Shown piece after piece: positions 4,803 to 24,550 of a stretch of DNA of 32,498 nucleotides; position 1 is the first letter of the stretch, and every line of letters starts with the position of its first letter. The stretch is taken from positions 1-32,498 of the forward strand of contig JAOAPT010000096.1 in NCBI GenBank assembly GCA_025463045.1, read 5' to 3'. The stretch is from Candidatus Solibacter sp. Lineage in GTDB: Bacteria; Acidobacteriota; Terriglobia; Bryobacterales; Bryobacteraceae. The notes below the pieces were generated by a model. That model worked only from the letters and a program-made list of their open reading frames with translations. It made no database searches and was not told the origin of the DNA. The translations under genes were made by a program, and so were the position numbers.

Positions 4803-4906
4803 GCAGTCCGCCGAGTATACGAGATCTGCGGCCCGTTCGTTCCGTAGTTGCTGATTTCGCTTGATTTTCCCTTTTTGTTCGCCCAGAATAGGGGGCAGAG
4901 GTTTGC
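4803..4906. promoter_or_regulatory. Divergent promoter region between ABC exporter and lexA
   Basis: These 104 bases must hold the start signals of two divergent genes. On the plus strand, TTGATT followed 18 bases later by AGAATA is a weak candidate for the lexA promoter, and a GGGGG run precedes the lexA ATG. On the minus strand TATACT stands out. I looked for a dyad that could be a LexA operator and found none that convinced me. The GTTCGTTC direct repeat near 4833-4840 is the closest thing to a known LexA half-site (GTTC of the alphaproteobacterial type), but its spacing is wrong. Confidence 0.35.
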
Positions 4907-5530: not shown

Positions 5531-5536
5531 GCGGAA

Positions 5537-5830: not shown

Positions 5831-6072
5831 AATATTTCTTTACTTTCTGGGAATGCGAATTTCACTCTATTTTACACCGGGACTACGTCACAATCGCATC
5901 AAAAGTTTCTATCGTTTGAATCACCAGCGTCACTCAACTAACATCGCCGAACGCCACGCTGACGCTTACCAAAACGTGCTTCTTTAGATACACTGCGCCG
6001 CTCTTGAACGGTTACGAAGCGGTCGCGCGGCGCGGATCTGTACCCCACCCAAGGCGGTCAAAAGCTGAGCCC

Positions 6073-6143
6073 CAATCGGAGCCGCGACCGTTAGGGAGCG
6101 GTGGTCGCGCGACCACCGCTCCGTAACCGTCGCGGCTCGGATT
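6073..6143. repeat. Long near-perfect palindrome, copy 1
   Basis: A 71-base inverted repeat. The arms pair over about 34 bases each with three mismatches, all C against G, around a short centre at GCGC. Each arm contains GAGCCGCGAC and GGAGCGGTGGTCG, the latter inverted as CGACCACCGCTCC. The same palindrome occurs at 32318-32391 with only a few differences. The right flank GTTCTTCATGGCC (6150-6162) also matches, apart from one base, the inverted left flank of copy 2, so the conserved unit is longer than the stem. It behaves like a dispersed intergenic REP/MITE-type element. It lies directly upstream of the nfeD-slipin operon. Confidence 0.85.
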
Positions 6144-6204
6144 AAGCGTGTTCTTCATGGCCCCCTTACCGCACCAGAGGGATGAAATGCACGATCGTTT
6201 TGTT

Positions 6205-6210
6205 GGGGAG
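6205..6210 (+). promoter_or_regulatory. Ribosome site deciding the NfeD-type protease start
   Basis: GGGGAG lies 6 bases before the GTG at 6217. That GTG opens directly onto a normal signal peptide (basic MYSEKRLRVR, then a hydrophobic core). A second in-frame candidate, ATG 6187, has AGAGGG ahead of it but adds ten polar residues before the signal sequence. Confidence 0.55.
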
Positions 6211-6216
6211 AACAAG

Positions 6217-7506: not shown

Positions 7507-7537
7507 ACAACCCGAGTAAGGAAACCAGGAGCCTCCT

Positions 7538-8332
7538 ATGAACGACCTGAGTCCAATCGTGCTGCTGTTCGTCGTAATCGTTGCCATCTGGCTGTTGAAC
7601 TCCATCAAGGTCCTGCGCGAGTACGAGCGCGGCGTCATCTTCCGTCTCGGCCGCCTGCTGCCCCAACCCAAAGGTCCCGGCCTGATCTTCGTCTTCGCGC
7701 CTTTTGACCGCATGGTGCGCGTCTCCCTCCGCCTCGAAACGCTCGAAGTCCCCGCGCAGGACGTCGTCACGCGCGACAACGTCACCGTCAAAGTGAACGC
7801 CGTCATCTACTCGCGCGTCATCGATCCGCGCCTCGCCGTCGTCGAGGTCTCGAACTTCGTCTACGCCACGTCGCAACTCGCGCAGACCACGCTGCGTAGT
7901 GTGCTCGGCGAAGTCGAGCTCGACGAACTCCTCAGTCAGCGCGAAAAACTCAACGTCCGCCTGCAATCGATTCTCGACCAGCACACCTCGCCCTGGGGCG
8001 TGAAGGTAACCATGGTCGAAGTCAAACAGGTGGATCTCGCCGAGCAGATGATCCGCGCCCTCTCCCGCCAGGCCGAAGCCGAGCGCGAACGCCGCGCCAA
8101 AATAATCCATGCCGAGGGTGAGTACACTGCCGCCGAAAAGCTGGCCATGGCCGCCGCAGTAATTCAGCAGGAGCCGGTCGCCATTCAGTTACGCTATCTT
8201 CAGACGTTGGTGGAAATCGGCGCTGAGAAGAATACCACCATCGTTTTCCCCTTGCCAGTCGATATAATTGCTTCTTTAGGGCGCGCGCTCGATCGGACCG
8301 GGAATGGGGGAGCAGCCGCTGGACACCCGTAA
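7538..8332 (+). CDS. Slipin, SPFH/band 7 membrane scaffold
   Basis: A 264-residue slipin. One membrane anchor lies at about residues 5-21, followed by the SPFH domain (about 25-190) with the family signature [12 protein letters not shown] and [13 protein letters not shown] coiled, charged stretch [19 protein letters not shown] links to a C-terminal helix. The length is normal for bacterial slipins. AGGAG at 7527-7531 lies 6 bases before the ATG. In this family the slipin oligomerises into membrane microdomains and is the partner, and in archaea the substrate, of the NfeD protease encoded just upstream. Its stop is 3 bases from the next start, so it is co-translated with the SPOR gene. Confidence 0.95.
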
Positions 8333-8335
8333 ATC

Positions 8336-8953
8336 ATGAGAAACAACGAAACCGGCGAATTTGAACTGGTAGTAGGCAATAAGCAACTCCTGAGCGGTTT
8401 TTTCATCGTGGTGCTGCTCTTCGCAGTCGCCTTCGCGATGGGCTACGTCGTAGGTCAGAACGCGCCGCGTTCCGCCAAGATGGCGTCGGAGGGCGGCTCC
8501 TCTCCCGCGCCCCTCACCAGCACCGCCGACGCGCGGCCGCAACCCTCGACGCCCACGCCCGTCCCCGTCTCCACTCCCACACCCACGGGCGAGCAGCCGC
8601 CTGCCGATTCGCAGCCGCAGCCAACGACCAAGGCCGCGCAGGACCCGCAGTCTCCCGTCACCGACAAGCCCGCCGGTAAGCCGGCCGAAGCTCCAGCCAC
8701 GGATTCAGGCATAGTCGCCGCCGCCGACCTGCCCGCGGGAAATTACTGGCAGGTTGTCGCCGTCAAAGCCGAAGTCACCGACGCGGTCGTTCAAACCTTG
8801 CATGGCAAGGGATTTCATGTCGTCCTCACCCCGGGGACCAGCAACCTGATTCGCGTCCTGGCAGGCCCGTACAACGACAACCCGTCCATGGGCCGCGCCA
8901 AGACCGATCTTGAGAATGCGGGGTTCAAGCCGTGGCGGTACAAGCGTGATTGA
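8336..8953 (+). CDS. SPOR-domain inner-membrane protein
   Basis: A 205-residue bitopic protein. It has a short cytoplasmic tail (1-18), one membrane helix (about 19-40, FFIVVLLFAVAFAMGYVVG), a long Pro/Thr/Ala-rich periplasmic linker (about 45-125) and a C-terminal SPOR domain (about 130-205). The SPOR domain shows YWQVVAVKAEVTDAVVQTLHGKGF and a later LIRVLAGPYNDNPSMGRAKTDLENAGF, the usual two-repeat pattern. SPOR domains bind glycan strands lacking stem peptides and typically act at division sites or in envelope remodelling. The linker is of the length needed to span towards peptidoglycan. The gene lies 3 bases after the slipin gene and overlaps lipA by 8 bases, placing it inside the operon. 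Confidence 0.92.
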   Translation: MRNNETGEFELVVGNKQLLSGFFIVVLLFAVAFAMGYVVGQNAPRSAKMASEGGSSPAPLTSTADARPQPSTPTPVPVSTPTPTGEQPPADSQPQPTTKAAQDPQSPVTDKPAGKPAEAPATDSGIVAAADLPAGNYWQVVAVKAEVTDAVVQTLHGKGFHVVLTPGTSNLIRVLAGPYNDNPSMGRAKTDLENAGFKPWRYKRD

Positions 8954-9872
8954 TTCCCTGGTCCAGATCGGCGATTCAGCACCGCCCCCCAAACGTCCCC
9001 GCCTGCCCGAGTGGGCGCGCAGGAGCAAGACGCATTTCCAGTCGCTCAACCACCTGAAGCGCGGATTGCGCGAGCTCAACCTCCACACCGTCTGCGAAGA
9101 GGCGCGCTGCCCCAACATTCACGAGTGCTTCCATCGCGGCGCTGCCACGTTCATGATTCTCGGCGAGCTCTGCACGCGCGGCTGCGGCTTCTGCAGCGTG
9201 CGCAAACTCAACCCGCGCAAGCACGATGTCCGCCTCGACGCCGCCGAGCCCGCCAACGTCGCCCGCATGGCCCGCGAGATGAAGCTGCGCTACGTCGTCA
9301 TCACCAGCGTGAATCGCGACGACCTGCCCGATGGCGGCTCGCATCACTTCGCCGAAACCGTCCGCGAAGTCCGCGCCGAGCTCCCCGATGCGCGCGTTGA
9401 AGTCCTCACGCCCGATTTCTGCGGCGATCTCGATGCCGTCGCCCGCGTGCTCGATGCCGGACCGCACGTCTTCAACCACAACATGGAAACCGTGCCGCGC
9501 CTCTACGCGCGCGTCCGTCCGCAGGCGATCTATCGGCAGTCGCTCGACGTGCTCGCGTTCGCGCGCCGCCACTCCCCCTCCGTGCTCACGAAGTCCGGCT
9601 TCATGGCCGGACTCGGCGAAGCCTCCGACGAAGTCCACGCGCTCCTCCGCGATCTCCGCGACGCCGGCACCCAGATCGCGACCATCGGCCAGTACCTCCA
9701 GCCCACGCGCCGCAATCTTCCCGTCGAAGCATTCGTCACGCCCGAGCAGTTCGACGCCTGGCGCGATTACGGCCTCTCGCTCGGCTTTCAGGCGGTCTTC
9801 AGCGGACCGCTCGTACGCAGCTCCTACATGGCCGACCTCGTCAGCGAGGAAGCCCAGCGGGGACTGTGCTGA
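8946..9872 (+). CDS. lipA: Lipoyl synthase, radical SAM
   Basis: A 308-residue lipoyl synthase, which inserts two sulfurs into protein-bound octanoyl groups to make the lipoyl cofactor of 2-oxoacid dehydrogenases and the glycine cleavage system. Auxiliary cluster ligands are Cys50, Cys55 and Cys61 (CEEARCPNIHEC), with the conserved RSSY serine near 292-293. The radical-SAM cluster is Cys76, Cys80 and Cys83 (CTRGCGFC). ITSVNRDDLPDGG and NHNMETVPRLY are diagnostic. GTG 8946 is chosen because it gives a normal N-terminus and overlaps the SPOR stop by 8 bases; a TTG 12 codons earlier is less likely. lipB is not in the window. Confidence 0.97.
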   Translation: MIDSLVQIGDSAPPPKRPRLPEWARRSKTHFQSLNHLKRGLRELNLHTVCEEARCPNIHECFHRGAATFMILGELCTRGCGFCSVRKLNPRKHDVRLDAAEPANVARMAREMKLRYVVITSVNRDDLPDGGSHHFAETVREVRAELPDARVEVLTPDFCGDLDAVARVLDAGPHVFNHNMETVPRLYARVRPQAIYRQSLDVLAFARRHSPSVLTKSGFMAGLGEASDEVHALLRDLRDAGTQIATIGQYLQPTRRNLPVEAFVTPEQFDAWRDYGLSLGFQAVFSGPLVRSSYMADLVSEEAQRGLC

Positions 9873-11317
9873 GCTGGATTCTCGCGCTGCTCTCGGCCGC
9901 GCTCCTGATCTTCACGTTCCCTAAATTCTCATTCGTGTGGCTCGCCCCCATCGCGCTCGCACCCTTGCTGATCGCGCTCGCCCGCGAGCCGCGATGGCCC
10001 CGCCGCTTCCTCCTCGGCTGGACCGCCGGCGTCGTCTACTGGTTCGGCGTCTGCTACTGGATTCAGTTCGTGCTCTCCTTCCACGGCGGCCTCGGCGACG
10101 TCGCAGGATGGGCCGTCTTTGTGCTCTTCTGCGTCGCCAAAGCCATCCACCTCGGCGCCTTCTCCGCGTTCGCCGGACCTCTCATGCAGCGCTGGTGGGC
10201 CGTCCCTGCGGTCGCCGCCCTCTGGGTCGCGGTCGAGGCCACGCACGGCTCGCTCGGCTTCGCATGGCTCGCGCTCGGCAACGCCGGCATCGATATGGGA
10301 ATCCCACTGCGCCTCGCTCCGTTCACCGGCGTCTACGGAATCTCGTTCGTCTTCGCGATGATGTCCGCCGCGCTCGCCATCGCGATTCTCCGCCGCCCGC
10401 GCCGTGAGCTCCTCTGGCTCGCCCCGATCCTGCTCCTCCCGCTGCTCCCCGAAATGCCGCCCGCCGAGCGTGGCCGCGCCGCCGCCCTGCTCCTCCAGCC
10501 CAACATCTCCGAGACCGAGCAGTGGACCGAAGAGAGTCTCTCCAAGGAGAAGCAGCGTCTCGTCATGCTCTCGCTGCAAGGCGCGCTCGCCGAATCGCAG
10601 CCGCCCTCGATCATCGTCTGGCCCGAGGTACCCGCGCCCTTCTACTACGCGGAGGACCCCATCTTCCGCGGCTATCTCAACAACCTCGCGCGCACCGCCC
10701 GCGCCTACGTGCTCGCCGGCATCGTCGCCCACACACCCGGCGGAGCGCCGCTCAATTCCGCCGTACTCATCTCCCCGGAAGGCGCGCTGCTCAGCCGTTA
10801 CGACAAGGTGAATCTTGTCCCCTTCGGCGAGTTCGTCCCGTGGCCTTTCGGCTTCGCCAACAAGATCTCCACCGAGGTCGGCGATTTCGCCGCAGGCACG
10901 CACGTCGTCGTCTCACAGGCCGGCGGCCACAAACTCGGCACCTTCATCTGTTACGAAAGTGTCTTCCCGAACTTCGTCCGAAAATTCGCCAACGGCGGCG
11001 CCGAGGTGCTCTTCAATATTTCGAACGATGGATGGTTCGGCAAGAGCGCCGCCCGCTGGCAGCACCTCAGCATGGTCCGCATGCGGGCCGCCGAAAATCG
11101 CCGCTGGATTCTCCGCTCCACCAACGACGGCATCACGGCGACCATCGATTCCGCCGGTCGCCTCCGCGGCACGCTGCAGCCCTACGAGGAGGCCGCCTCC
11201 TATACGGGCTATAACTACGAGTCCACCCGTACTATTTATACCCGTTTCGGCGATTGGTTCGCACTCTTATGTGCTGTCCTAGCGATTCTCGGCTTAGTCG
11301 CAGCACGCATCGTCTAA
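9866..11317 (+). CDS. lnt: Apolipoprotein N-acyltransferase
   Basis: A 483-residue integral membrane enzyme that adds the third acyl chain to the N-terminal cysteine of lipoproteins. The N-terminal half (about 1-195) has six or so membrane helices, the nitrilase-like catalytic domain spans about 205-440, and a last helix lies at about 463-480. The catalytic triad is Glu254 (VWPEVPAPF), Lys314 (YDKVNLVPFGEFVP) and Cys362 (TFICYE). NISNDGWFG is also a family hallmark. The GTG at 9866 overlaps the lipA stop by 7 bases. It is the last gene of the five-gene run and is followed by an AT-rich dyad at 11358-11376. Its presence implies a Gram-negative type envelope with triacylated lipoproteins. Confidence 0.96.
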   Translation: MLSWILALLSAALLIFTFPKFSFVWLAPIALAPLLIALAREPRWPRRFLLGWTAGVVYWFGVCYWIQFVLSFHGGLGDVAGWAVFVLFCVAKAIHLGAFSAFAGPLMQRWWAVPAVAALWVAVEATHGSLGFAWLALGNAGIDMGIPLRLAPFTGVYGISFVFAMMSAALAIAILRRPRRELLWLAPILLLPLLPEMPPAERGRAAALLLQPNISETEQWTEESLSKEKQRLVMLSLQGALAESQPPSIIVWPEVPAPFYYAEDPIFRGYLNNLARTARAYVLAGIVAHTPGGAPLNSAVLISPEGALLSRYDKVNLVPFGEFVPWPFGFANKISTEVGDFAAGTHVVVSQAGGHKLGTFICYESVFPNFVRKFANGGAEVLFNISNDGWFGKSAARWQHLSMVRMRAAENRRWILRSTNDGITATIDSAGRLRGTLQPYEEAASYTGYNYESTRTIYTRFGDWFALLCAVLAILGLVAARIV

Positions 11318-11357
11318 CACTCCCTCCCGCCCAAGCTTTTACAAGTACTCCCGCCGG

Positions 11358-11376
11358 CTTATGAAGAAGTCATAAG
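11358..11376. promoter_or_regulatory. Perfect dyad CTTATGA-n5-TCATAAG
   Basis: A perfect 7-base inverted repeat with a 5-base centre, 41 bases after the lnt stop and about 200 bases before the PEP-CTERM gene. It is AT-rich against a GC-rich background, and no T-run follows, so it fits an operator better than a terminator. Its binder is unknown. Confidence 0.4.
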
Positions 11377-11485
11377 AATGTAATCGCCCGAATCGACCGC
11401 CGCGGACAGTTATACCGTCGATTTCGTTCGGCTCTTCACGACGCCCGCGGGCCTGGGGTAAGATCGCTTGCGAACATACGGCGAA

Positions 11486-11501
11486 GGTCTAATTTTAGAC
11501 C
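11486..11501. promoter_or_regulatory. Perfect dyad GGTCTAATTTTAGACC
   Basis: A 7-base perfect inverted repeat (GGTCTAA/TTAGACC) separated by two bases, about 75 bases upstream of the PEP-CTERM ATG. Position and symmetry suggest an operator or the edge of a promoter for that gene. I did not find a matching copy elsewhere in the window. Confidence 0.4.
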
Positions 11502-11574
11502 GATTCCAAACTAAAGGCACCGCAGAATAAGTCGAGCCGCGGAGGAAGCGGTGAACTTATCTCCGGAGGAGCAG

Positions 11575-12306
11575 ATGATTAGTCGCTTGATACCGACGTG
11601 TTTACTCTTAGCCGCCGCCACTCATGCAGGTCCAATTACCGGATCGTTCAACATTGCGGGAACAATCACGGTTACAACCAACACCATTACGTGGGTTCTG
11701 AACGACCCACCGTTTCCGCCGGACAAAGCTACGATTGGTCCGGGCACCACGGGATCCTTTTCCCTTCCGGGTATCGCGGGCTCGACCGTAACGATTCGTG
11801 ATCTAAACAGGACTACGGCTCCGGTGGGTTCGACCTTCGGTCCGCTCCCGTTTATTTCTTTCGACTCGCCGGCCGCGATCGCCGCCGGATTTCCGGCGTT
11901 GAACATCAACTTCATTTTCAACGGGATCTTTTCGAACGCGGCTTGCGCCACTCTGCCGCCCGCCGTCGGACAGTCGTGCACCCCCAGCGCACCGGGGGCA
12001 CCTTCGCCGTTCAACTTCGTCAATAATCCGCCTGGACCTCCCGATGGGCCGCAGGCCACGGGAACTTTCGTATTTCAGGGAGTGACCAGCGACGGCCTTG
12101 AAAACTGGCGCGGCAATTTCACTTCGTCGTTCAACGTGCCATTCCAAACCGTCCTGGCAGCGCTCGCTGCTAATGGTTCCGTCACTCAGACATTCGCGGC
12201 GACCTTCACCCTCAGTCCCGCGATCGTGCCTGAACCAATCACGCTCTCGCTAGTCGGCATAGCTCTTTCCGGTCTGTCTTTGATCGGAAGAAGGAAAACC
12301 AGCTAG
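11575..12306 (+). CDS. PEP-CTERM sorting-signal protein
   Basis: A 243-residue exported protein. The start at ATG 11575 is set by GGAGGA at 11565-11570; the open frame extends to GTG 11551 but without a ribosome site. A short signal peptide (about 1-18, LLLAAATHA) leads into a beta-rich, Thr/Ser/Gly/Pro-rich body with little charge. The C-terminus (about 218-243) is a textbook PEP-CTERM tag: VPEP, a hydrophobic helix, then RRK. Such proteins are processed by an exosortase and are linked to exopolysaccharide or biofilm matrix. No exosortase is present in this window. Two cysteines (about residues 126 and 135) might form a disulfide. No specific function can be given for the body of the protein. 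Confidence 0.9.
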   Translation: MISRLIPTCLLLAAATHAGPITGSFNIAGTITVTTNTITWVLNDPPFPPDKATIGPGTTGSFSLPGIAGSTVTIRDLNRTTAPVGSTFGPLPFISFDSPAAIAAGFPALNINFIFNGIFSNAACATLPPAVGQSCTPSAPGAPSPFNFVNNPPGPPDGPQATGTFVFQGVTSDGLENWRGNFTSSFNVPFQTVLAALAANGSVTQTFAATFTLSPAIVPEPITLSLVGIALSGLSLIGRRKTS

Positions 12307-12319
12307 CGGGCTGCCGCGT

Positions 12320-12395
12320 CTGCCCGCTCACCGAATCAAACTCCCGTCGGCATCGGATGCCCCGCTGTCTTTCGGTAGTCTGATTCGGTGGGCAG
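12320..12395. terminator. Foldback structure between convergent genes
   Basis: Arms at 12320-12342 and 12377-12395 pair over about 18 positions (CTGCCC, then CACCGAATCA, ACT) with one small bulge and one mismatch. A second perfect hairpin, GCATC-G-GATGC (12350-12360), lies inside the loop. It is placed just after the PEP-CTERM stop and before the converging membrane-protein gene, so a bidirectional transcription stop is plausible. There is no clear T-run, and a small mobile repeat is the alternative. Confidence 0.45.
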
Positions 12396-12454
12396 CGCGG
12401 CGCTGCCTTACGAAGAGCCCGCCTTCAATCGGCGGCTTCAGCTACCGTCCGCAC

Positions 12455-12961
12455 TCACCGTTGTTTCGGCGATTGATTCGCGCTCTGATGTGCCGCCCTC
12501 GGGGTCTTCGACAAACGTCGGATGGAAAAGGCGATCGACGGCCCGATCACGACCATACTTACCACCAGAAAAGCCACGAAGCTTTGCAGCACGAACGGCC
12601 TGCGCCCGATTGCCGACATTGGTATCACGACGAATGTCATGAACAGGTGCACCGCGACGCCGAATGCGATGCCGCAGGCAAGTGCCTGGTCGATCAGAAT
12701 CGGAAATTGCCGGCTCGCGAAGTAGTAAACGGCGGCCGCTCCCGTAGCGACGACAAAATGCAAGATCAGCCCCAACAAGGCCGTGCTCGCGCCTCCCTGG
12801 AATGCGCTGCGGCCAAGCAGTCCGCTGGCGATCCCCTGAAACACTCGCATCGGACCCGCGCCAAAGTATCCGGAGACGACGACAGCGCTAAGCGCATCCA
12901 ACACGCCGCAAATCAGCCCGGCGAATACGATTGTGCGGAACGCGCTCTGCCCCTGCATCAT
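12455..12961 (-). CDS. Small four-helix membrane protein
   Basis: A 168-residue protein with four predicted membrane helices (about 10-30, 58-80, 92-110, 122-145) and a polar, Gln/Ser/Lys-rich cytoplasmic tail. The pattern, including GLICGVLDALSAVV near the N-terminus and FGVAVHLFMTFVVIPMSAIG in the third helix region, resembles DUF1440/YagU-like inner-membrane proteins, but this assignment is tentative. AGGGGAG precedes the ATG at 12961 and overlaps the end of the ychF-like gene 7 bases upstream, so the two are likely co-transcribed. Confidence 0.75.
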   Translation of the reverse strand: MMQGQSAFRTIVFAGLICGVLDALSAVVVSGYFGAGPMRVFQGIASGLLGRSAFQGGASTALLGLILHFVVATGAAAVYYFASRQFPILIDQALACGIAFGVAVHLFMTFVVIPMSAIGRRPFVLQSFVAFLVVSMVVIGPSIAFSIRRLSKTPRAAHQSANQSPKQR

Positions 12962-12968
12962 TTCTCCC

Positions 12969-14042
12969 CTACGAGTGTCTGATCACCAGTACATCGCCGT
13001 CCTTCACGATGTACTCCTTCCCTTCCAGCCGCAACTGTCCCTTGTCACGCGCCCCCGAGTATCCGCCGAGATCGATCAGCGTCTTCCAGTTCACCACTTC
13101 CGCGCGAATGAACTTCTTCTCGAAATCCGAATGGATCGCCCCCGCCGCCTTCACCGCCGTACTATTCATCGGGATCGTCCACGCGCGGCACTCGTCCTCG
13201 CCCGCCGTCAAAAAGCTCATCAGTCCGAGCAGCGAGTACGTCGCCGAAATCAGCCGCTCGAGCCCCGAGTCCGTCAGCCCGTAGCTCTTCAAATACTCGG
13301 TCTGCTCTTCGCGCGGCAACTCCGCGAGCTCCGCCTCGACCTGCCCGCACACCGCGCTCACCGCCGTCCGCGCGCGCCCCGCCAGCGGACCGTTGCGATA
13401 CTCCTCTTCCCGTTCCCGCAGCCGAGACGCATCCTCTTCACCGAGATTCAGCACGTACAACATCGGCTTCTGCGACAGGAACTGAAATCCGCGAATCCGC
13501 TTCTCGTCCTCCACATCCAGCTCGAGTTGCCGCAGCGGCTGATTCGCCTCAATCAGCGCCTTGCACTTCATCAGCAATTCGTACTCGCGATCGAGCTCCG
13601 GATTCTTGATCTTCTTGCGATCCTTTTCCAGCCGCTCCAGCCGTTTCTCCACCACCGCGAAATCGCTGAGGATGAGTTCCATCTCCAGATCTTCCATGTC
13701 GCGGATCGGGTCCACGGACCCCTTCTCATGCGGAATCGTGTCCGACGCGAATAGCCGCAGCACATGCACGAACGCATCCACGTTGCGCAGGCTCGCCATC
13801 GCGCCCGCATCGCGCAGCGTCTCCTTCGAAATCGACGGCATGTCGACGTATTCCACCGTCGCGTGCGTCACCTTCGGCGGTTCGAAAAGTTTGCCGAGAG
13901 CTTCCAGCCGGGCGTCCGGCACCTTCGCCACTCCTTGCCGAACGGCGGTGGACCCGATGCGCGTTTCCTGATGTACGCCGGTCAAAATCGTAAAAAGCGA
14001 GGTCTTGCCCGTCATGGGCAGCCCGATGATTGCTGTTCTCAT
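12969..14042 (-). CDS. ychF: Divergent YchF/Obg-family GTPase (ATPase)
   Basis: A 357-residue P-loop NTPase of the YchF branch. G1 is GLPMTGKT (7-14), where classic YchF has GLPNVGKS. The G3 region reads VDMPSIS (66-72), lacking the glycine that normally follows the DxPG/DxAG switch II motif. A charged coiled-coil insertion spans roughly 115-165 (EKRLERLEKDRKKIKN). NLGEED marks the adenine-specifying NxxE region, and residues about 270-357 are the C-terminal TGS domain ending in GKEYIVKDGDVLVIRHS. YchF proteins bind ATP rather than GTP and associate with ribosomes. The changed G3 suggests an altered or weak hydrolase; a paralogue besides a standard YchF is likely. It lies 15 bases after the MoxR gene and 7 bases before the membrane-protein gene. 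Confidence 0.88.
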   Translation of the reverse strand: MRTAIIGLPMTGKTSLFTILTGVHQETRIGSTAVRQGVAKVPDARLEALGKLFEPPKVTHATVEYVDMPSISKETLRDAGAMASLRNVDAFVHVLRLFASDTIPHEKGSVDPIRDMEDLEMELILSDFAVVEKRLERLEKDRKKIKNPELDREYELLMKCKALIEANQPLRQLELDVEDEKRIRGFQFLSQKPMLYVLNLGEEDASRLREREEEYRNGPLAGRARTAVSAVCGQVEAELAELPREEQTEYLKSYGLTDSGLERLISATYSLLGLMSFLTAGEDECRAWTIPMNSTAVKAAGAIHSDFEKKFIRAEVVNWKTLIDLGGYSGARDKGQLRLEGKEYIVKDGDVLVIRHS

Positions 14043-14057
14043 AATAAGGAGCGATTT

Positions 14058-15041
14058 CTACAGGGGAACTTCCACCTGGCTGAGTATTTCTTCGATGATG
14101 CGCTCGCCGGCTTCGCCCCGCCGCTGCACCAGGGTGCTGCGCGTGTTGACGACCACCCGGTGCGCAAAGAGCGGCGCCGCCAGGCGCTTCACATCGTCCG
14201 GAATCGCGTAGTCGCGGCCTTCCATCAAAGCCAGCGCCTGCACCGCGCGGAACAACGCCTGGCTGCCGCGCGGACTCACGCCCAGCGCCAGCGATTCGTG
14301 CGTGCGCGTGCGCTCGACAATCGCGAGCATGTAATCCACCAGCGTTTCCTCGACCGTCACCCGCCCGACCGCGTCCTGCAGTTGGATCACGTCGTCCGCC
14401 GATAGCCCGGTCTTCACCGGCTGCGAATTATCGCGCTCCGAATTCCGCAGAATCTGACGTTCGCTCGCCGCGTCCGGATAGCCGATCCGCAGCCGCATCA
14501 AAAAGCGATCGAGCTGCGACTCCGGCAGCGGATACGTTCCGTGATGCTCCACCGGATTCTGTGTCGCGATCACCATGAACGGCCGCGGCAGCGAATGCGA
14601 CTTTCCGTCGATCGTCACCTGGCTTTCGTTCATCGCCTCCAGCAGCGCCGATTGCGTCTTCGGCGTCGTCCGATTGATTTCATCTGCCAGCAGGAAGTTG
14701 CTGAAGATCGGTCCCGGCTTGAATTCGAATGCCTCCGAGTGCGCGTTGTAGATCGTCACGCCGAGAACGTCGCTCGGCAGCATGTCGCTCGTGAACTGCA
14801 GCCGGTGGAACCGGCAGGATGCCGACCGCGCCAGCGCCTGCGCAAGCGTCGTCTTTCCCACTCCGGGGACGTCCTCGATCAACAGGTGCCCGCGCGCGAG
14901 CAGGCTGACGAGGGACAGCCGCACCACTTCAGGCTTGCCGCGAATCGCCGCACCGACGGCCGTCTCCAGTTCCGCGAGCTTTTGGAGAATATCGGGCGAA
15001 AACCCAACCGGCGGGGCCACGATTGTTTCCCGCTGGGACAT
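14058..15041 (-). CDS. MoxR-family AAA+ ATPase
   Basis: A 327-residue MoxR ATPase of normal length. Walker A is GVGKTT in EDVPGVGKTTL (about 57-66), Walker B is LLADEINR (about 127), sensor 1 is VIATQNPVEHHGTYPLPE, and a sensor-2-like SPRGSQAL lies near residue 265. MoxR proteins act as chaperones that fit metal cofactors or assemble complexes, usually with VWA-domain proteins. The usual neighbours, a DUF58 protein and VWA or transglutaminase proteins, are absent; downstream are a YchF-like GTPase and a small membrane protein. The ATG at 15041 lacks a good ribosome site but the N-terminus matches the family. Confidence 0.93.
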   Translation of the reverse strand: MSQRETIVAPPVGFSPDILQKLAELETAVGAAIRGKPEVVRLSLVSLLARGHLLIEDVPGVGKTTLAQALARSASCRFHRLQFTSDMLPSDVLGVTIYNAHSEAFEFKPGPIFSNFLLADEINRTTPKTQSALLEAMNESQVTIDGKSHSLPRPFMVIATQNPVEHHGTYPLPESQLDRFLMRLRIGYPDAASERQILRNSERDNSQPVKTGLSADDVIQLQDAVGRVTVEETLVDYMLAIVERTRTHESLALGVSPRGSQALFRAVQALALMEGRDYAIPDDVKRLAAPLFAHRVVVNTRSTLVQRRGEAGERIIEEILSQVEVPL

Positions 15042-15205
15042 TACAAGTTAATGATACTAAACATCCGGCCATTTCCCTCAATTCGTCCTGGAAACCCACC
15101 GACCGTAATTCAACGTTAAATTCAAGCTAATTAACCAACTGTAATGTATTAGAACCTACGATTTAGCGGCCAAATTGTATAAAATTGACCCATGGAGACC
15201 CTTTG
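15042..15205. promoter_or_regulatory. Divergent, AT-rich intergenic region
   Basis: This 164-base gap separates the MoxR operon (leftward) from the sulfatase-like gene (rightward) and is clearly more AT-rich than its surroundings. TATAAA near 15178 is a candidate -10 for the rightward gene, but no good -35 lies at 16-18 bases. The region should contain both promoters; I cannot assign them firmly. Confidence 0.35.
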
Positions 15206-17308
15206 ATGGCGGCTCAAAGCCAAGCGATTTTTTCCGAGGCAAACCCCAGTATCGCGCTGCCCCGCTCCATTCTTGCCGGCCTCGGCTGGGGCCTCGCAAT
15301 GTGGTGGTCTTACGCCGTAATCGAATACGCACTTCTATCTGCACTTCCCTTATTTCAATCCCCCCAGGGTGTATTCAATGGCGCTCATTGGCGTTTGAGC
15401 GGCCTGCTCTTCGACGCGTACTGGTTCCTCGGAGCCCTTTCCGGCGCCGCAGCCGGAACGCTGGTCAGGAACTGGAACGTGCGAGGCCCTCGGTCCGGCA
15501 GGCGAGACCTCCATTGCGGCCGCCTGCCCGGTACCTTCAGCCTCCTCGTCGCAATCCAGGTCAATCTCTGTCTCGCGCTGCCGGCCGGAGCGTTCGCAAT
15601 GTTCACGCTCGCGCTCGCTTTCGTAATGAGTGTGGGGATCCTCTGGGTTCTGCGACACCCCGACTCACGCATCCTCGACTTTGTTGATTTCAATCCCTTT
15701 CTTCTTGCATTTCTGCTCATCGGCCCTACCTGGTTCGGCACGGAGGCACTGGCCGACACCGCGGTTCCCACCAAAGTCGAGGTCGTGGTTCTGGTCACGG
15801 GCCTTCTTTTCGGCGGCAACTGGCTCTTGAGAAAAGCGCCCCGCTGGACTGCCGGATCGCATTTCCTCAGTGGGGTCGGCATCATGGCCCTCATCGTCCT
15901 GGCCTGTGGCTTCCGCAGCGGCACTAACAAGGCGGTCGCACCATATACCCGTCCCTCCACCTCGAACCCGGGCCGAGCGCCGGTCATCATGATCGTTCTG
16001 GACACCACCAGGGCGGACCACCTGTCGCTCAGCGGCTACTCTCGGCGCACCACGCCCCACCTCTCGGAATTCGCCGCTGGCGCTACCACGTACACCAACG
16101 TCATGGCCGCCGGAGATCTCACGCTGTCCACGCACGCAACCATGTTCACCGGAGTCTACCCCAGTTGGCACGGCGCGAGAGTCTACCCCTATCCCGGGGG
16201 ACCGGCTCCCCTCGACGGTAGGCTGCCCACACTCGCCGGAATCCTGTCCGCGAATGGCTATGCCAGCCTGGCGGCCTGCTCCAACAGCGTCTATCTTAGC
16301 CGTCAGTGGGGCCTCGGTCGCGGCTTTGACCGCTTCTCCGTCCAACGGCAGGTCGAAGTGATTCAGGCCAGCCGCCGCTTCGAGTTGCGGCTCGGCCTAC
16401 GCTCCCTGTTGGGGTGGACGCTGCGGACCCCCGAATTCGAACGCCTGTATCGCAACGCCGAGGAAGTGAACGATCAAGCCATCAGCATGATCTCCCAGCC
16501 CGACGCCCGCAATCGCTCGTTCTTCCTCTACGTGAACTACATGGACGCCCACGTGCCGTACCTCCCCGAGGCGCCGTACGACCAGATGTTTACCAACGGC
16601 GCGCCGGCCCTCTCGTACGCCCGTCACCGGGAGATGGTCACGCGCCTCTACAAGGCTAATGACATCAGCGAAGAGGACCGCGCAAGCCTGATCGCCCAGT
16701 ACGATGGCGGAATCGCTTATGCGGACTTCGCGCTTAGCCGGCTCATCAAAAAGCTCAAGAGCATGGAACTGTACGACCGTTCCATGATCATCATCACCAG
16801 CGATCATGGGGAAAGCTTCGGCGAGCACGGCGTCTGGTTCCACGGCAACTCCATTCACCAGAACGAAGTCGGCGTGCCGCTGCTCATCAAGTACCCCGGC
16901 CAGACTACCGCCTCGGTCGTCCAGACCCCCGCGTCGCAGGTCGATCTGATGCCGACCATTCTCGCCACGCTCGGCTATCCGATTCCAGGCCACGTGCAAG
17001 GGCACAGCCTGCGCAACCTCGACGCGATCGAGAATCGCCAGTTGATTGCCGAGTCGGTTAGCGGCCGCGCCTTCCGTTGGGGCTCCCTGAAGCTGATCGT
17101 CTCCGCCGCCGGCAAACGCGAACTCTACGACCTCGGCAAAGATCCGAACGAAAATCACAACATGTATTCTCCCCTCGATCCCGAGTCGAAGACAATGGAC
17201 GAAGCCTACGCACAGTGGCTGAAAACGCTCCCCGTCACCCACCGCGCCGTTCCCCAGACCGACCGCGAGGAGTTGAAACACCTTCGCGGACTCGGCTACG
17301 TGCAGTAG
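15206..17308 (+). CDS. Membrane-anchored sulfatase-like phosphohydrolase/transferase
   Basis: A 700-residue protein with two halves. Residues 1-235 carry about six membrane helices; residues 258-690 form an alkaline-phosphatase-superfamily (sulfatase PF00884-like) domain. Metal ligands appear as IVLDTTRADH (Asp266) and TSDHGESFGEHG. At the nucleophile position the sequence reads TLSTHATMFTG; counting back from the TG, Thr306 replaces the Cys or Ser of the C-x-P-S-R sulfatase motif. That makes a formylglycine sulfatase unlikely and fits the Thr-nucleophile subgroup that includes phosphoethanolamine transferases and phosphodiesterases. The ATG has GGAGA 7 bases upstream (15194-15198). The topology suggests action on the outer face of the inner membrane, perhaps on a lipid or glycan; substrate unknown. 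Confidence 0.85.
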   Translation: MAAQSQAIFSEANPSIALPRSILAGLGWGLAMWWSYAVIEYALLSALPLFQSPQGVFNGAHWRLSGLLFDAYWFLGALSGAAAGTLVRNWNVRGPRSGRRDLHCGRLPGTFSLLVAIQVNLCLALPAGAFAMFTLALAFVMSVGILWVLRHPDSRILDFVDFNPFLLAFLLIGPTWFGTEALADTAVPTKVEVVVLVTGLLFGGNWLLRKAPRWTAGSHFLSGVGIMALIVLACGFRSGTNKAVAPYTRPSTSNPGRAPVIMIVLDTTRADHLSLSGYSRRTTPHLSEFAAGATTYTNVMAAGDLTLSTHATMFTGVYPSWHGARVYPYPGGPAPLDGRLPTLAGILSANGYASLAACSNSVYLSRQWGLGRGFDRFSVQRQVEVIQASRRFELRLGLRSLLGWTLRTPEFERLYRNAEEVNDQAISMISQPDARNRSFFLYVNYMDAHVPYLPEAPYDQMFTNGAPALSYARHREMVTRLYKANDISEEDRASLIAQYDGGIAYADFALSRLIKKLKSMELYDRSMIIITSDHGESFGEHGVWFHGNSIHQNEVGVPLLIKYPGQTTASVVQTPASQVDLMPTILATLGYPIPGHVQGHSLRNLDAIENRQLIAESVSGRAFRWGSLKLIVSAAGKRELYDLGKDPNENHNMYSPLDPESKTMDEAYAQWLKTLPVTHRAVPQTDREELKHLRGLGYVQ

Positions 17309-17436: not shown

Positions 17437-17817
17437 ATGAAAAAAGGATTGCTGACTCTGGCCGCTGCCCTGATGACCTTGGCGCCGATTAGCGCTCCGG
17501 CAGCGGTACGCGGTTTCGTCTCCGTAGGCCGGCCCTACTATGGTGGCTTCTACCGCCCGTACTGGGGGCCCTATTGGGGACCGTACTACGGAATGGGCGC
17601 CTACCCCAACTCCGGGGAAGTGAAGCTCGATACCAAGGTGAAGGACGCGCAGGTATTCATCAACGGCGCCTACGCCGGCACCACTCACGACAACAAGACG
17701 ATGCACCTGCGGCCGGGCAGCTACAACATCGAAATCAGGGAAGCCGGCCACACGCCGTACGCTGAGCGCATCTACGTTGTGAGGGATAAAACCCTGCATC
17801 TGCATCCCGAACTATAG
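17437..17817 (+). CDS. Exported PEGA-domain protein
   Basis: A 126-residue protein. The signal peptide is residues 1-22 (MKKGLLTLAAALMTLAPISA). A tyrosine/glycine/proline-rich segment (about 30-57) contains repeated PYWGP/GPYYG units. A PEGA domain follows (about 61-126): EVKLDTKVKDAQVFINGAYAG, then LRPGSYNIEIREAGH. PEGA domains are small beta-sandwiches found on surface proteins of many bacteria, generally at the envelope. No enzyme motif is present. It is a single gene between the sulfatase-like gene and a hairpin at 17829-17870. Confidence 0.9.
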   Translation: MKKGLLTLAAALMTLAPISAPAAVRGFVSVGRPYYGGFYRPYWGPYWGPYYGMGAYPNSGEVKLDTKVKDAQVFINGAYAGTTHDNKTMHLRPGSYNIEIREAGHTPYAERIYVVRDKTLHLHPEL

Positions 17818-17872: not shown

Positions 17873-18133
17873 ATGTGTTCGACCTGCGTCGTCGTTACCC
17901 CAGCCGTCGCCCATCGCGGCAAACAAGCTCTCGAATATTTTGAAGGTGTGTCCGCGCAAACCGCTGGATCGCACGGGCTCTGCATGCACCTCGTCACCAT
18001 CCCGCCCCGCGCCCGCGCCAAGCCCCACCTTCACGAACACCACGAAAGCGCCGTTTACGTGATCTCCGGCGAGGCCGGTATGTGGTACGGCGAAGGACTC
18101 CGCGAGCACGTAGGCGCCGAAGTTGAAGAATGA
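17873..18133 (+). pseudogene. Truncated cupin-domain protein
   Basis: The 86-residue reading frame (ATG 17873; an upstream GTG at 17831 is less likely) is clearly the first half of a single-domain cupin. GKQALEYFEGVSAQ and GLCMHLVTIPP are followed by the metal-binding HLHEHHESAVYVISGE motif, in which the histidines and glutamate would bind a metal ion. After YGEGLREH the family sequence stops: the second cupin motif, with its proline-rich turn and last histidine, is missing. The frame instead ends in GAEVEE and a TGA at 18131. I find no remnant of the rest in other frames downstream. The break falls where plus-strand base bias flips. The same frame stays open past the TGA into the next ORF. 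Confidence 0.75.
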
Positions 18134-18135
18134 GG

Positions 18136-18177
18136 GCAAGGCCCGAGCGATCAAGGCTCGCTGGGAAGGACCCTTGC
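18136..18177 (+). other. Hairpin immediately after the in-frame TGA
   Basis: GCAAGG (18136-18141) pairs with CCTTGC (18172-18177). Within it CGAGC and GCTCG form a second perfect stem with a 7-base loop. It begins 2 bases after the TGA that ends the cupin frame. It could be a simple terminator or junction debris; placement just after a UGA and near selB makes a bacterial SECIS conceivable but unproven. Confidence 0.4.
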
Positions 18178-18193
18178 GCCAGGCGTTCTCCGG

Positions 18194-18628
18194 ATGAGCG
18201 GCGTGGACGCTACCGTGATCGATGCGATTGGCGTCGGAACGATTGAGGATCCTCAGCGAATACGGTCCCGACTGAGCCGTTTTCAAGCGGAAAAACAGAC
18301 CCTGCCGGTGGCGCTGCTCTACTGTTTCGGCGCTTTCGCAGTTGCCCGGGTGATCTGGCGGCGGTATCCGGAGGCTGAGAATGGCTGGATTCCGGGGGCG
18401 GCGATGGGTCTGTTCGTGTCACTCGCGTTGGCGGTGGGAGTCCTGATGGTGGGAGAACTCTGGTGCTGGAACGTGGAGACCATGCGGGTGGGCAACAGCC
18501 ATATGAGCTACCGCGTGAACCGACTCTGGTGGGCGCGGCACCGGTTCGAATTATTCGCGAGCGGCGCGATCGTGTTCTGGCTCGCGGGCGTTAAAGAATT
18601 ACGCGCTGATCGCCGTCGCGTCGGGTGA
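18194..18628 (+). CDS. Small membrane protein, unknown function
   Basis: A 144-residue protein with an N-terminal polar region (1-35) and three predicted membrane helices (about 36-53, 68-92, 118-135). A WWARHRFELF segment with basic and aromatic residues precedes the last helix. I do not recognise the family. The ATG at 18194 has no obvious ribosome site. The frame is continuous with the truncated cupin frame upstream apart from one TGA, so the true start may be different or the protein may be a C-terminal remnant. Its 3' end overlaps the convergent selB by 38 bases. Base bias is G-rich, like everything to its right. Confidence 0.55.
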   Translation: MSGVDATVIDAIGVGTIEDPQRIRSRLSRFQAEKQTLPVALLYCFGAFAVARVIWRRYPEAENGWIPGAAMGLFVSLALAVGVLMVGELWCWNVETMRVGNSHMSYRVNRLWWARHRFELFASGAIVFWLAGVKELRADRRRVG

Positions 18629-20450
18629 GCCGTTCGCGATCGAGAAATTCCAGCAAGGGGATGGCGTACTTGCGGGAGATGTTGGTCCACTCCTTGAATG
18701 CGGGCACGGCGAAGCGCTCGCCCTTGTGGACGGCGAGCGTCGCGCGCAGTTGATCGATCGCAGTCGCGTGAAAGACGAGGTCTTCGCTGACGCGGACGAG
18801 GCGTTTTTCGCGGAGGAGGATCTGGAGGAGCGAGCGGGCGCGGGCGGGCTCGACTCCGGAATTCGCGAGGACCTCGGCGACGGCGGGGACGGCGAGTCCG
18901 GCGGACTCGAAGGCGGTTTCGATTTTGGCGCGAGCCTGCGTTTCGTCTTCCTTGAGAACGAGTTTGTGCGCGCGGGAGCGGACCAGGTCGGCGTCGGCGA
19001 CGATCTCCTTCGCATCGGCGATCAGCGCATCGAGTAGGAAGGGCGGAGCTCCGGCGCGGAGGTCCTGGCGGGCAATGCCGGGCAGCAGGGGATTCTTCTG
19101 GTGGAACTCGCGGACGGTTTTGACGATGCGATCGCGAGCGGACTGCATCCACGCTCGGTCGACGTACCAGGGGCGCGGCTGAGGGATGGCGACAATGGGC
19201 GCGCCGGCCGCGGCGGCGACGATGGCGGACTCGGTGAGTCCGGTGCGCGCGATCAGATCGTCGAGAGACATGCCGAAGGGAGACTCGCGGACGAGCAGGG
19301 AGACGCGCGCGGAATTGTCGGCGCCGGCGAGCGTGTCGAGCCGCGCGGCGAGGTCGTCCGACTTGCGATAGCGGCGTGCGCCGATGTCGACGACGGCGCC
19401 TCCGCCGATCGTGACGACGGGCGAGAACATGCGGATGATGAAGCGATCGCCGGGCAGGAGCAGGGCGGGTTCGCGGAGGATGAGGCGCGCGTAGGTAGTC
19501 GTGCCGGGACGCATGGCGGCGGTGGATTGGAGCAGGCGAACCTCGGCCTCGATCTCGGCGGTGCCGGAGTGAAAGTGAACGGGCGCGCGGTGCTTGAGGG
19601 GTTTGGCGGAGGGCAGCAGCGTGAGGCGGCAATCAAGCTGCGTGACGGCGTGAAAGCGGTCGGGCACGCTGAGAACGTCGCCGCGGTGGAGGTCGGCAGG
19701 CTCGATGTCGGCGAGGTTGACGGCGGTGCGCTGGCCGGCGAGGGCGCGGTCGGATTTGCTGCCGTGGACTTGCACGCCGCGCACGCGGAGGCGACGGGAG
19801 GCGGGGTAGAGCTCGACTTCGTCGTCCTTCGCGACGGTGCCAGAGATGAGGGTGCCGGTGGCGACGGTGCCGAAGCCTTTGACGGTGAAGACGCGGTCGA
19901 TGGGGAGACGGAAGTGCCCGGCGGCGTTTTTCTCGGGGACGGTGGAAGCGACTCGGGCGAGTTCACGACGGAGATCGTCGAGGCCGGCGCCGGTGACGGA
20001 ACTGACGGGGACGATGGGCGCGGATTCGAGGAACGAGCCGGCGACGAGCTCTTCGACTTCCATGCGGACGAGGCCGAGGATATCGGGATCGACGAGGTCG
20101 GATTTCGTGAGGGCGATGATGCCGCGCGGAATGTCGAGGAGGCGGCAAATATCGAAGTGCTCGCGGGTTTGCGGCTTGATGGATTCGTCGGCGGCGACGA
20201 CGAAGAGGACGAGGTCGATGCCGCCCACCCCGGCCAGCATGTTCTTTACGAAACGTTCGTGGCCGGGGACGTCGACGAAGCCGAGGCGGAGAGCGGGAGT
20301 GAGGTTGAGGTGAGCGAAGCCGAGATCGATGGTGATACCGCGGCGTTTTTCTTCTTCGAGACGGTCGGCGTCGATGCCGGTGAGGGCTTTGACGAGCGCG
20401 GTTTTGCCGTGATCGATGTGTCCTGCGGTGCCGACGATGATGTGCTTCAT
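18591..20450 (-). CDS. selB: Selenocysteine-specific elongation factor SelB
   Basis: A 619-residue SelB, normal length. The N-terminal EF-Tu-like GTPase has G1 GHIDHGKT (10-17), the switch [11 protein letters not shown]3 [13 protein letters not shown] and G4 TKSDLV. Beta-barrel domains follow to about residue 340. The C-terminal part (about 375-619) contains winged-helix repeats that bind the SECIS hairpin, ending in [22 protein letters not shown]. SelB delivers Sec-tRNA to UGA codons. selA, selD and tRNA-Sec are not in the window, so their presence elsewhere is implied. The ATG at 20450 lies 20 bases from the divergent glycosyltransferase start. Confidence 0.97.
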
Positions 20451-20470
20451 GGGCTTGTTACAGTGTAGAA

Positions 20471-21595
20471 GTGCTTGCCTGGCTTCTGCTAGCCCTGGTC
20501 ACGGGCTCGGCAGTCTACTGCGTGCTTACCATCATCGCGGCGATTCGATATCGTGCGGTGTGTCCGCCGGAATTGCGTGCGGGAATGCCGATCAGCGTGC
20601 TCAAACCGCTGGCGGGCGTGGATGACGGGCTCGAGCAGAATCTGCGAAGTTTCTTCGAGCAGAAGTACTGGCAGTTCGAGATTCTGTTCGCGGTGCGGAA
20701 TGCGGACGATCCGGCGATCGCGGTGGCGGAGCGGCTGCGGGCGCAATATCCGGCGGTGCCTTCACGGATGATCGTGACGGGCGAGCCGCCGTATGCGAAC
20801 GCGAAGGTGTACAGCCTGGACTTGATGCTCGTGGCGGCGCGGCACGATTTGCTGGTGATGGCGGACAGCGATATTCGCGTGACGCCGACGATGCTGGCGA
20901 CGATCGCGGCGGAGTTTCAGGATGAGCGGCTCGGCCTGGCGACGTGTCCGTATCGCGCGGTGCCGGGGCGGAGTTTCTGGAACACGCTGGAGGCGCTCGG
21001 GCTGAACACGGAATTCATCGGCGGCGTGTTGGTGGCGCGGATGCTGGACGGGATGAAGTTCGCGCTCGGGCCGACGATCGCGGCGCGGCGGGCGACGCTC
21101 GCGGGAATCGGCGGGTTCGACGCGGTGAAGGATTTTCTGGCGGAGGATTTCGTAATGGGGAAGCTCGCGGCGGAGCGCGGCGATGGCGTGATCCTGTCGT
21201 CGTACGTGATCGAGCATCGGATCGGGGCGCAGTCGCTGGCGGCGAATTTGCGGCACAGGCTGCGGTGGAATCGGAGTACGCGGCGGTCGCGTCCGGCGGG
21301 GTATGTGGGGCAGTTGTTCACCAATCCTCTGCCGCTCGCGTTGATGTTGTGGGCGGTGCGTCCGGAATGGTGGGCGGTGGTCGCGGGGGTCGTCCTGTTG
21401 CGCGCGGCGGCGGGATGGGCGACGGCGGGGCATGTGCTGCGCGACGGGTTGACGGCGCGATTGTTTTTTCTGGTGCCCGTGCAGGATGTGCTGAGCTTCG
21501 CGATGTGGGTCGGCGGATTTTTCGGGAATACGATTCTATGGCGCGGGCGGAAATATTATTTGCAGAGTGATGGGCGGTTTGAGTTGGTGAGGTGA
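20471..21595 (+). CDS. hpnI: GT21-type glycosyltransferase, HpnI/ceramide glucosyltransferase-like
   Basis: A 374-residue membrane glycosyltransferase. The N-terminal helix is at about 3-24. The GT2-fold domain has [20 protein letters not shown] (nucleotide-sugar binding), the DSD metal motif (132-134), the catalytic region LAEDFVMG (Asp226) and HRLRW (262-266) in place of the usual (Q/R)xxRW. Two or three C-terminal membrane helices follow. This pattern belongs to ceramide glucosyltransferases and HpnI, which adds N-acetylglucosamine to bacteriohopanetetrol. No other hopanoid gene is nearby, so a sphingolipid or hopanoid acceptor cannot be decided. The start is GTG 20471, leaving only 20 bases to selB; no clear ribosome site is seen. 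Confidence 0.88.
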
Positions 21596-21617
21596 GGGGC
21601 CAGTACAATGGAGCACG

Positions 21618-23159
21618 ATGAATCGGCTTGATGAATTACGACGGCGGCACGAGGCCGCGGAGCAGGGCGGCGGGCCGGAGCGGAAGGCGCGGCAGCACAA
21701 AGAAGGCAAGCTGAGCGCGCGGGAGCGGATCGATTTGCTGCTCGACGAGGGGTCGTTCGAGGAGCTCGATAAGCTGGTCACGCACCGGTGCCGCGACTTC
21801 GGAATGGAAGAGCAGGTGGTGCCGGGCGACGGGTTCGTCACGGGGTACGGGCGGATCGAAGGGCGCCTCGCGTACGTGTTCGCGCAGGACTTCACGGTGT
21901 TCGGCGGATCGCTCTCGGAAACGAACGCGCTGAAGATCTGCAAGATCATGGACCTCGCGATGAAGACGGGGGCTCCGGTGATCGGGCTCAATGATTCGGG
22001 CGGCGCGCGGATTCAGGAGGGCGTCGTTTCGCTGGCGGGGTACGCGGATATTTTCTTGCGCAATACGCTGGCGAGTGGAGTGGTGCCGCAGATCTCGGCG
22101 ATCATGGGGCCGTGCGCGGGCGGTGCGGTTTACTCGCCGGCCATCACGGACTTCGTGTTCATGGTGGATCACACGAGCTACATGTTCGTCACGGGGCCGG
22201 ACGTGATCAAGACGGTGACGCACGAGGACGTGACGAAGGAGACGCTGGGCGGGTCGATGACGCACAACTCGGTGAGCGGAGTCGGGCACTTCATCGCGGC
22301 GGACGATGCGGAGTGCTGCCGGATGATTCGCGAGCTGATGACGTACCTGCCGCAGAATAATCGCGAGGACGCACCGCGTCGGGCGACCAACGATCCGGCG
22401 GACCGGATGGATGCGGCGCTTGATTCGATCGTGCCCGCAGAATCGAACATGCCGTACGACATCAAGGACGTGATTCATCGCGTGGTGGATGACGGCGAAT
22501 TCTTCGAGGTGCACGAGCACTTTGCGAAGAATCTGGTGGTGGGGTTCGCGCACATCGACGGGCGGTCGGTGGGGATCGTGGGGAATCAGCCGGCGTTTCT
22601 CGCGGGGTGCCTGGATATCAACTCGTCGACGAAGGGCGCGCGGTTCGTGCGGTTTTGCGATGCGTTCAACATTCCGATTCTGACGTTCGAAGACGTGCCG
22701 GGATTTCTTCCGGGGACGGCACAGGAGTTCGGCGGCATCATCCGGCATGGGGCGAAGCTGCTTTACGCGTATGCGGAGGCAACGGTGCCGAAGATCACGG
22801 TGATCACGCGGAAGGCGTACGGCGGGGCGTATTGCGTGATGGGGTCGAAGCACATTCGCACGGACGTGAACCTGGCGTGGCCGACGGCGGAGATCGCGGT
22901 TATGGGGCCGGAGGGCGCGGTGAACATCGTGTACCGGCGCGAACTGGCGGCGGCGGACGATCAGGCGGCAGTGCGGAAACAGAAGACGGAGGAGTTTCGC
23001 GAGCGGTTCGCGAACCCGTTCGTGGCGGCGGAGCGCGGCTACGTGGATGACGTGATCGAGCCGCGGGAAACGCGGCCGCGGGTGATCCGCGCGCTTCGGA
23101 TGCTGGAGAACAAAGTCGACACGATGCCGCGCAAGAAGCATGGGAATATTCCCTTATGA
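21618..23159 (+). CDS. pccB: Acyl-CoA carboxylase beta subunit (propionyl-CoA carboxylase type)
   Basis: A 513-residue carboxyltransferase subunit. Two crotonase-like halves are visible. The N-half has [40 protein letters not shown] and [12 protein letters not shown] (oxyanion region); the C-half has [40 protein letters not shown] and [15 protein letters not shown]. This domain order and length match PccB and methylmalonyl-CoA decarboxylase alpha subunits, which move a carboxyl group between biotin and propionyl-CoA or methylmalonyl-CoA. No biotin carboxylase, biotin carrier or mutase gene is adjacent. The gene starts 22 bases after the glycosyltransferase and overlaps the next gene by 4 bases (ATGA). 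Confidence 0.94.
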
Positions 23160-24550
23160 GAGTGATCGCGTGTTGGGTGTTGCTGGCGGCCGCTGCGGCG
23201 GCGCAGGAGCGATATGCGGTGGACTGGCATAAGCTCGAGCCGGAGGTGCTGGCGAACTTCACGGCGCTGTTGAAGATCGACACGAGCAATCCGCCGGGCA
23301 ATGAGACGGCGGCGGCGAAGGCGATCCAGGCGGTGCTGGAGCGCGAGGGGATCCCGTGCAAGCTGTTCGCGCTAGATCCGGCGCGGGCGAATCTGGTGGC
23401 GCGGATCAAGGGCAGCGGGGCGAAACGGCCGCTGCTGTTGATGGGGCACACGGACGTGGTCGGCGTGCAGCGCGAGAAGTGGAGCTTCGATCCGTTCGCG
23501 GCGATCAATAAGAACGGTGTGATCTACGCACGCGGGTCGCGCGATGATAAGCCGCACGTGGTCGCGGGCATGATGACGCTGCTGTTGCTGAAGCGGATGA
23601 ACGTGAAGCTGGATCGCGACGTGATCTTCCTCGCCGAGGCGGGGGAAGAGGGCACGAGCACGTACGGCATCGATTACATGGTGAAGGAGCATTGGCCGGA
23701 GATCGACGCGGAGTTCGCGATGGCGGAGGGCGGATCGATCGTGGAGCGGAGCGGCAAGCCGCACTACGTGTCGATTGCGACGACGGAGAAATCGCCGCAG
23801 CGGACGCGGCTGGTGGCGCACGGTCCGGCGGGGCACGCGTCGCGGCCGGAGATGGCGAACGCGGTGGTGCACCTGGCGGCGGCGGTGGAGCGCGCGGGCA
23901 ACTGGCAGACGCCGATGCGGCTGAACGAGACGACGCGGGTCTACTTTCAGCGGTTGGCGGAGATTTCGCCGCCGGCGCTGGCGGCGCGGTATCGCGACAT
24001 CTTGAATCCGGCGAAGGCGGCGGAGGTCGACAAGTATTTTCGGAAGAACGAAGCGGGGCACTACTCGATCTTGCGAACAAGCGTGGTGCCGACGATCGTC
24101 AACATCGGATTCCGGTCCAACGTGATTCCGTCGGAGGGCGAGGCGATGCTGGATATTCGCGCGCTGCCGGACGAGGACATGACGAAGTTCGTGGCGGAAC
24201 TGCGGAAGGTGATCAACGATCCGGCGATCGAGGTGATTCCGCCGAAGTCGAGCGCGCGGCCGGTGGCGGCGCCGTCGCGGATCGATACGGAGATGTTCCG
24301 CGTGCTGGAGGAAGTGGGGCAGCGGATGTTTCACGTCCCGACACTACCGAACATGATGACGGGCGCGACGGACAACGCGCAGTTGCGCGCGAAGGGCGTG
24401 CAGGCGTACGGCACGGGGCCGATCGTGTCGCCGGAGGAAGGACCGCTGGGCGGGGCGCATACGGACGACGAACACATTCCGGTGCGCGCGCTGATGGGGT
24501 TGATGGAGTACCAGTGGAACGCGGTGATCGGGGTCGCGGCGGCGAAATGA
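23156..24550 (+). CDS. Secreted M20-family metallopeptidase
   Basis: A 464-residue zinc peptidase with a signal peptide (1-16, cleavage before QERYAVD). Metal ligands follow the M20 pattern: His98 in MGHTDVV, bridging Asp130 in RGSRDDK, catalytic Glu164 and ligand Glu165 in EAGEEGTS, and a final histidine in GGAHTDDEH. The dimerisation lid domain sits between about 205 and 330 ([18 protein letters not shown]). M20 enzymes of this type (ArgE/DapE/CPG2-like) trim dipeptides, N-acyl amino acids or similar; the exported location suggests peptide scavenging. The ATG overlaps the pccB stop as ATGA, so it is co-translated. It also shares a reading frame with the AraC remnant just downstream. Confidence 0.93.

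Follow-up and report, generated by a model that had tools for sequence, protein, structure and literature searches.

A sharp GC-skew flip at a scar of gene fragments in a Candidatus Solibacter contig, probably a rearrangement seam

In the contig analysed here, the plus strand turns abruptly from C-rich to G-rich at about 18.1 kb, and the turn coincides with a scar in which pieces of three genes lie end to end. We consider the flip to be most probably a rearrangement seam, i.e., an inversion or translocation breakpoint, at which segments of opposite replication polarity have been joined (probability about 0.7). The window is the entire contig C927 of 32,498 bp, which belongs to a 7.7-Mb draft genome of 1038 contigs that is approximately 92% complete.

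Results

The cumulative G-C count over the contig showed a sharp turn with its lowest value at 18,067, a local minimum on this one contig. A two-rate model of the skew, applied to 12.0-24.6 kb, placed the changepoint at 18,068 with a 95% credible interval of 18,035-18,178 and a log-likelihood gain of 134 nats. The plus-strand value of (G-C) per base was -0.078 left of the flip and +0.114 right of it; in 1-kb sliding windows it ranged from -0.03 to -0.24 on the left and from +0.02 to +0.29 on the right. These values confirmed that the flip is real, sharp and well beyond chance.

The genes on the two sides are oriented in both directions. The left block with its C-rich plus strand (4850-15,060) carries genes for NfeD, band-7, SPOR and Lnt on the plus strand and for YchF and MoxR on the minus strand. 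It is followed by two plus-strand genes, a sulfatase-domain gene at 15,185-17,308 (PF00884, 4.5e-45) and a PEGA-domain gene at 17,437-17,817 (PF08308), which has homologs in the family and is the complete gene closest to the flip on its left side. The first complete gene to the right, where the plus strand is G-rich, is selB on the minus strand (18,591-20,450); the closest named relatives of its product are from MAGs labelled Candidatus Solibacter, Bryobacterales or Terriglobia. Together with a glycosyltransferase 21, a carboxyltransferase and an M20 peptidase it makes up the right block (18,601-24,540), which is collinear in a relative (G005:C133). As a control for coding bias, plus-strand skew was calculated gene by gene at fourfold-degenerate sites. 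The clear left genes gave about -0.27 to -0.53 on both coding strands, while values on the right were +0.64 to +0.70 for selB (minus strand, +0.68) and for the glycosyltransferase, carboxyltransferase and M20 peptidase genes (all plus strand), and +0.3 to +0.5 for genes of both strands further right. Only the PEGA gene beside the flip was near zero (-0.08). Since the sign at these sites was the same on either coding strand, the flip is not a coding bias. The initial annotation had described a turn of strand bias at about 18.06-18.19 kb, independent of the coding strand, and both parts of this description held.

Approximately 0.6 Mb of contigs were sampled from the same genome, 0.3 Mb of which were long enough for a test on blocks of 3 kb. 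None of the 104 adjacent 3-kb pairs on the other sampled contigs matched the flip in opposite-sign strength, and it is the strongest seen among them. Adjacent blocks were strongly correlated in this genome (r = 0.83), and when blocks were paired at random, a flip of such strength arose 3% of the time. In about 1.46 Mb of relatives, a value of 0.075 on both sides was reached at one place. Nearly all other sampled flips, in its own genome and in relatives, are weaker, which is a point against reading this one as a rearrangement.

Between the PEGA gene and selB three gene pieces follow each other on the plus strand, separated by two seams at about 18,113 and 18,300. The first piece is the 5' part of a cupin gene (17,873-18,117), cut at about 18,112-18,117 and covering positions 2-35 of the 70 in the Cupin_2 profile. 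A cupin gene that lacks its second half had been noted at the turn, and this proved correct: the matching of family homologs ends at 18,109-18,117. The annotation did not mention the decayed IS110-family transposase fragment right of the cut, nor the second truncated gene behind it. The IS110 piece (18,113-18,303) corresponds to an internal part, approximately residues 307-368 of 491, of a transposase in the same-genus genome G004 (L096), which has an open frame of 491 codons with both IS110 domains, DEDD and Transposase_20. About 62 codons are left in the window, disrupted by three small frame-breaking indels; no intact transposase with these two domains was present at the junction, where the pieces gave no Pfam match. 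The third piece is the 3' part of a small membrane-protein gene (18,304-18,628), lying tail to tail with selB. Its 5' part is missing, and in the matching DNA of another genome (G011:C19:10026-10134) the reading frame extends further 5' than in the window.

The start of the IS110 homologs, located independently of the ends of the cupin homologs, fell at 18,112-18,116, and the two homologies have at most about 5 bp in common where they meet. The credible interval of the changepoint includes this first seam, flip and seam agreeing within about 50 bp. Homologs of each piece of the scar occur separately in the family, and among 237 family genomes compared by DNA match none had a match crossing either seam. 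The repeats found at the junction were short and chance-like, and the junction was found on no plasmid. The cupin fragment itself was rare in near relatives and showed 68-75% DNA identity to plasmid-borne cupin genes of rhizobia and Streptomyces, suggesting that it may derive from a mobile gene.

The disrupted genes meeting at one point, i.e., a cut cupin gene, a frameshifted IS fragment and a membrane-protein gene truncated at its 5' end, argue for a rearrangement. The fact that two gene fragments meet at a single point would also be expected if the assembler had fused two pieces of opposite polarity, from the same genome or from a close species, at or near 18.1 kb. The source is a draft metagenome assembly, the junction was found in no other genome, neighbouring blocks elsewhere in the genome are strongly correlated in skew, and breaks in GC skew are recognised as a sign of misassembly (PMC7717575). 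We nevertheless regard such a join as unlikely. The few base pairs shared by the cupin and IS110 homologies are too little for an overlap-based join, and searching the own genome revealed neither a shared repeat or overlap at the junction nor a second match of the stretch. There are no Ns, both halves match the same relatives at similar identity, the tetranucleotide distance between the two sides of the seam is unremarkable, and the decayed content comes with two seams, not one. A join with DNA from a different genus was rejected on the same matches and tetranucleotide distances.

Comparison with relatives gave two observations. Firstly, the gene order of the left block was largely kept in relatives such as G005, G006, G008 and G009, and in these the homologs of the left block and of the selB block were located on different contigs. 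As expected of a breakpoint, what adjoins at the seam in the window lies apart in relatives. The neighbours downstream of selB varied, and none of those compared resembled the neighbour in the window. A preference for an inversion breakpoint or an assembly join over an origin had been expressed in the initial annotation; both indeed rank above an origin, and a genuine rearrangement is now judged likelier than a join. That reading could be sharpened because the flip lies within about 50 bp of a cupin/IS110 seam that is crossed in none of the 237 genomes.

The second observation was that the left block is opposite in polarity to its counterparts. The coding-strand fourfold skew of ychF was +0.52 in the window versus -0.38 in G006, -0.51 in G008 and -0.39 in G005, and moxR and Lnt were likewise reversed relative to same-genus relatives. 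The right block has the same polarity as in G005, where the same sign runs on beyond selB. The coding skew of selB was -0.68 in the window and ranged from -0.53 to +0.82 across relatives. An inversion alone leaves a gene's own coding-strand skew unchanged. With the block opposite in skew to the same-genus relatives compared, we infer that it has long been on the other replication strand, and the seam may postdate this change of strand. In G006 a sharp positive-to-negative flip was observed at about 6.0-6.3 kb of locus L079 (G006:C121), immediately beyond the moxR homolog; in this second species, too, the block ends at a break.

Horizontal acquisition of the segment left of the seam, carried in with a skew of its own, could be suspected from the sparse cupin fragment, with two weak protein matches among 60 relatives, and from its DNA matches to the plasmid-borne rhizobial and Streptomyces genes. 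We consider this very unlikely, since most of the left block has retained its gene order and shares 73-80% DNA identity with genomes of the same genus, i.e., it is native, and DNA homologs of the cupin were also found in other genera of the family.

Milder flips are frequent in the family. With a threshold of 0.03 per base for opposite-sign blocks of 3 kb, 21 origin-like and 22 terminus-like flips were recorded in the 1.46 Mb of relatives, a balance that could not arise from a single origin and a single terminus in each genome. This bears on whether the flip at 18.1 kb could be a true replication origin with the two sides as chromosome arms. The polarity fits, the turn from negative to positive being sharp and strong on both sides whichever strand is coding. 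DnaA boxes, parS, an AT-rich dip, origin-linked genes and the skew around dnaA in relatives were all checked, with mostly negative outcome. No DnaA box within one mismatch was found near the flip, let alone a cluster, and the window as a whole contains 7 boxes versus 13.9 expected by chance. No parS was detected with up to 4 mismatches. The best 60-bp windows at 17.3-18.7 kb do not exceed 53% AT, compared to 67% elsewhere in the window. A scar of gene fragments stands in place of a conserved origin neighbourhood, relatives do not carry the left and right blocks side by side, and the two types of flip are equally common in the family. We therefore find an origin at this position very unlikely.

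The genes dnaA, dnaN and gyrB are located on another contig, C976 (dnaN and gyrB named from their translations). The annotation was right that dnaA, dnaN and a DnaA-box cluster are lacking at the turn. As an argument against an origin, the missing dnaA is weak evidence, because dnaA lies inside an unbroken skew block in the own genome, in G005 and in G012, and does not mark the skew origin in any of the three. On C976 and in G005 (L071, G005:C233:41000-53908) the block around dnaA is strong and unbroken, and in G012 (G012:C2:360000-480000) there is no skew inflection for about 90 kb upstream of the gene. Such displacement leaves room for an origin elsewhere. A functional origin at about 18.1 kb, remote from dnaA and lacking standard DnaA boxes, in a lineage in which dnaA has ceased to mark the origin, is likewise very unlikely in our view.

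The counterparts of the rearrangement were searched for in the same assembly. The reciprocal junction was not found in the approximately 92% complete, 1038-piece assembly with PF01548, Cupin_2 and the full IS110 protein as queries. This counts against the preferred reading, as far as so incomplete a draft allows, and for the same reason inversion and translocation are indistinguishable. The search for the missing half of the cupin gene, which the annotation had proposed, yielded no clear orphan 3' half but four weak partial matches (C482, C926, C107 and C787). Another part of the same IS110 type was not found in the assembly. An IS110 gene that runs to the end of contig C59 was considered as the matching part and rejected, as it belongs to another subtype (27% identity).

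Elsewhere in the window, two copies of a near-perfect palindrome of approximately 75 bp were observed at 6074-6143 and 32,318-32,394. The first copy is predicted to fold with -62.8 kcal/mol (z -8.1). The palindrome has many matches in relatives on both strands, above all in G028, and no Rfam match in the window. It looks like a dispersed repeat of the REP or MITE type.

Discussion

The preferred reading, a rearrangement seam, would imply that non-homologous recombination joined segments long equilibrated to opposite replication directions, and that mutation has not yet levelled their skew. The IS fragment may then be the mark of a region struck by mobile-element activity. The fragment is homologous to the IS110-family transposase of G004, a family with DEDD and Transposase_20 domains and a bridge-RNA system (PMC11208160), but is a frameshifted remnant of about 62 codons and not a working element. 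That DNA can be inverted with an IS110 recombinase has been published (PMC11208160). The relic in the window gives no evidence that such a recombinase inverted DNA or made the join here, and too little of it is left to tell.

The case resembles the skew breaks that mark the breakpoints of inversions and translocations, the principle used by SkewIT (PMC7717575), in that a sharp sign change occurs where gene order departs from that of relatives; it differs in that a single breakpoint is visible on the contig. With oriC the flip shares the polarity of the skew, from C-rich to G-rich along the plus strand, but lacks a DnaA-box cluster, an AT-rich unwinding region and origin-linked genes. For the related Candidatus Solibacter usitatus Ellin6076, the genome paper reports a lack of strand bias, counts 123-126 mobile-element genes and describes recombination mediated by repeats, and it proposes recombination linked to mobile elements (PMC3174227). 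Those statements are genome-wide, while the present case concerns one seam and the IS110 remnant lying at it. A rearrangement scar of this sort is fairly ordinary in kind for genomes that are often reshuffled.

Where a break in skew carries a scar of gene fragments, it can serve to locate points of rearrangement or to flag draft contigs for checking. In acidobacteria of the Solibacter type, an origin is not identified by a local minimum of the skew, and polarity is a mosaic: a gene with a strong leading-strand bias in one species may have a strong lagging-strand bias in another, and dnaA may lie away from any inflection.
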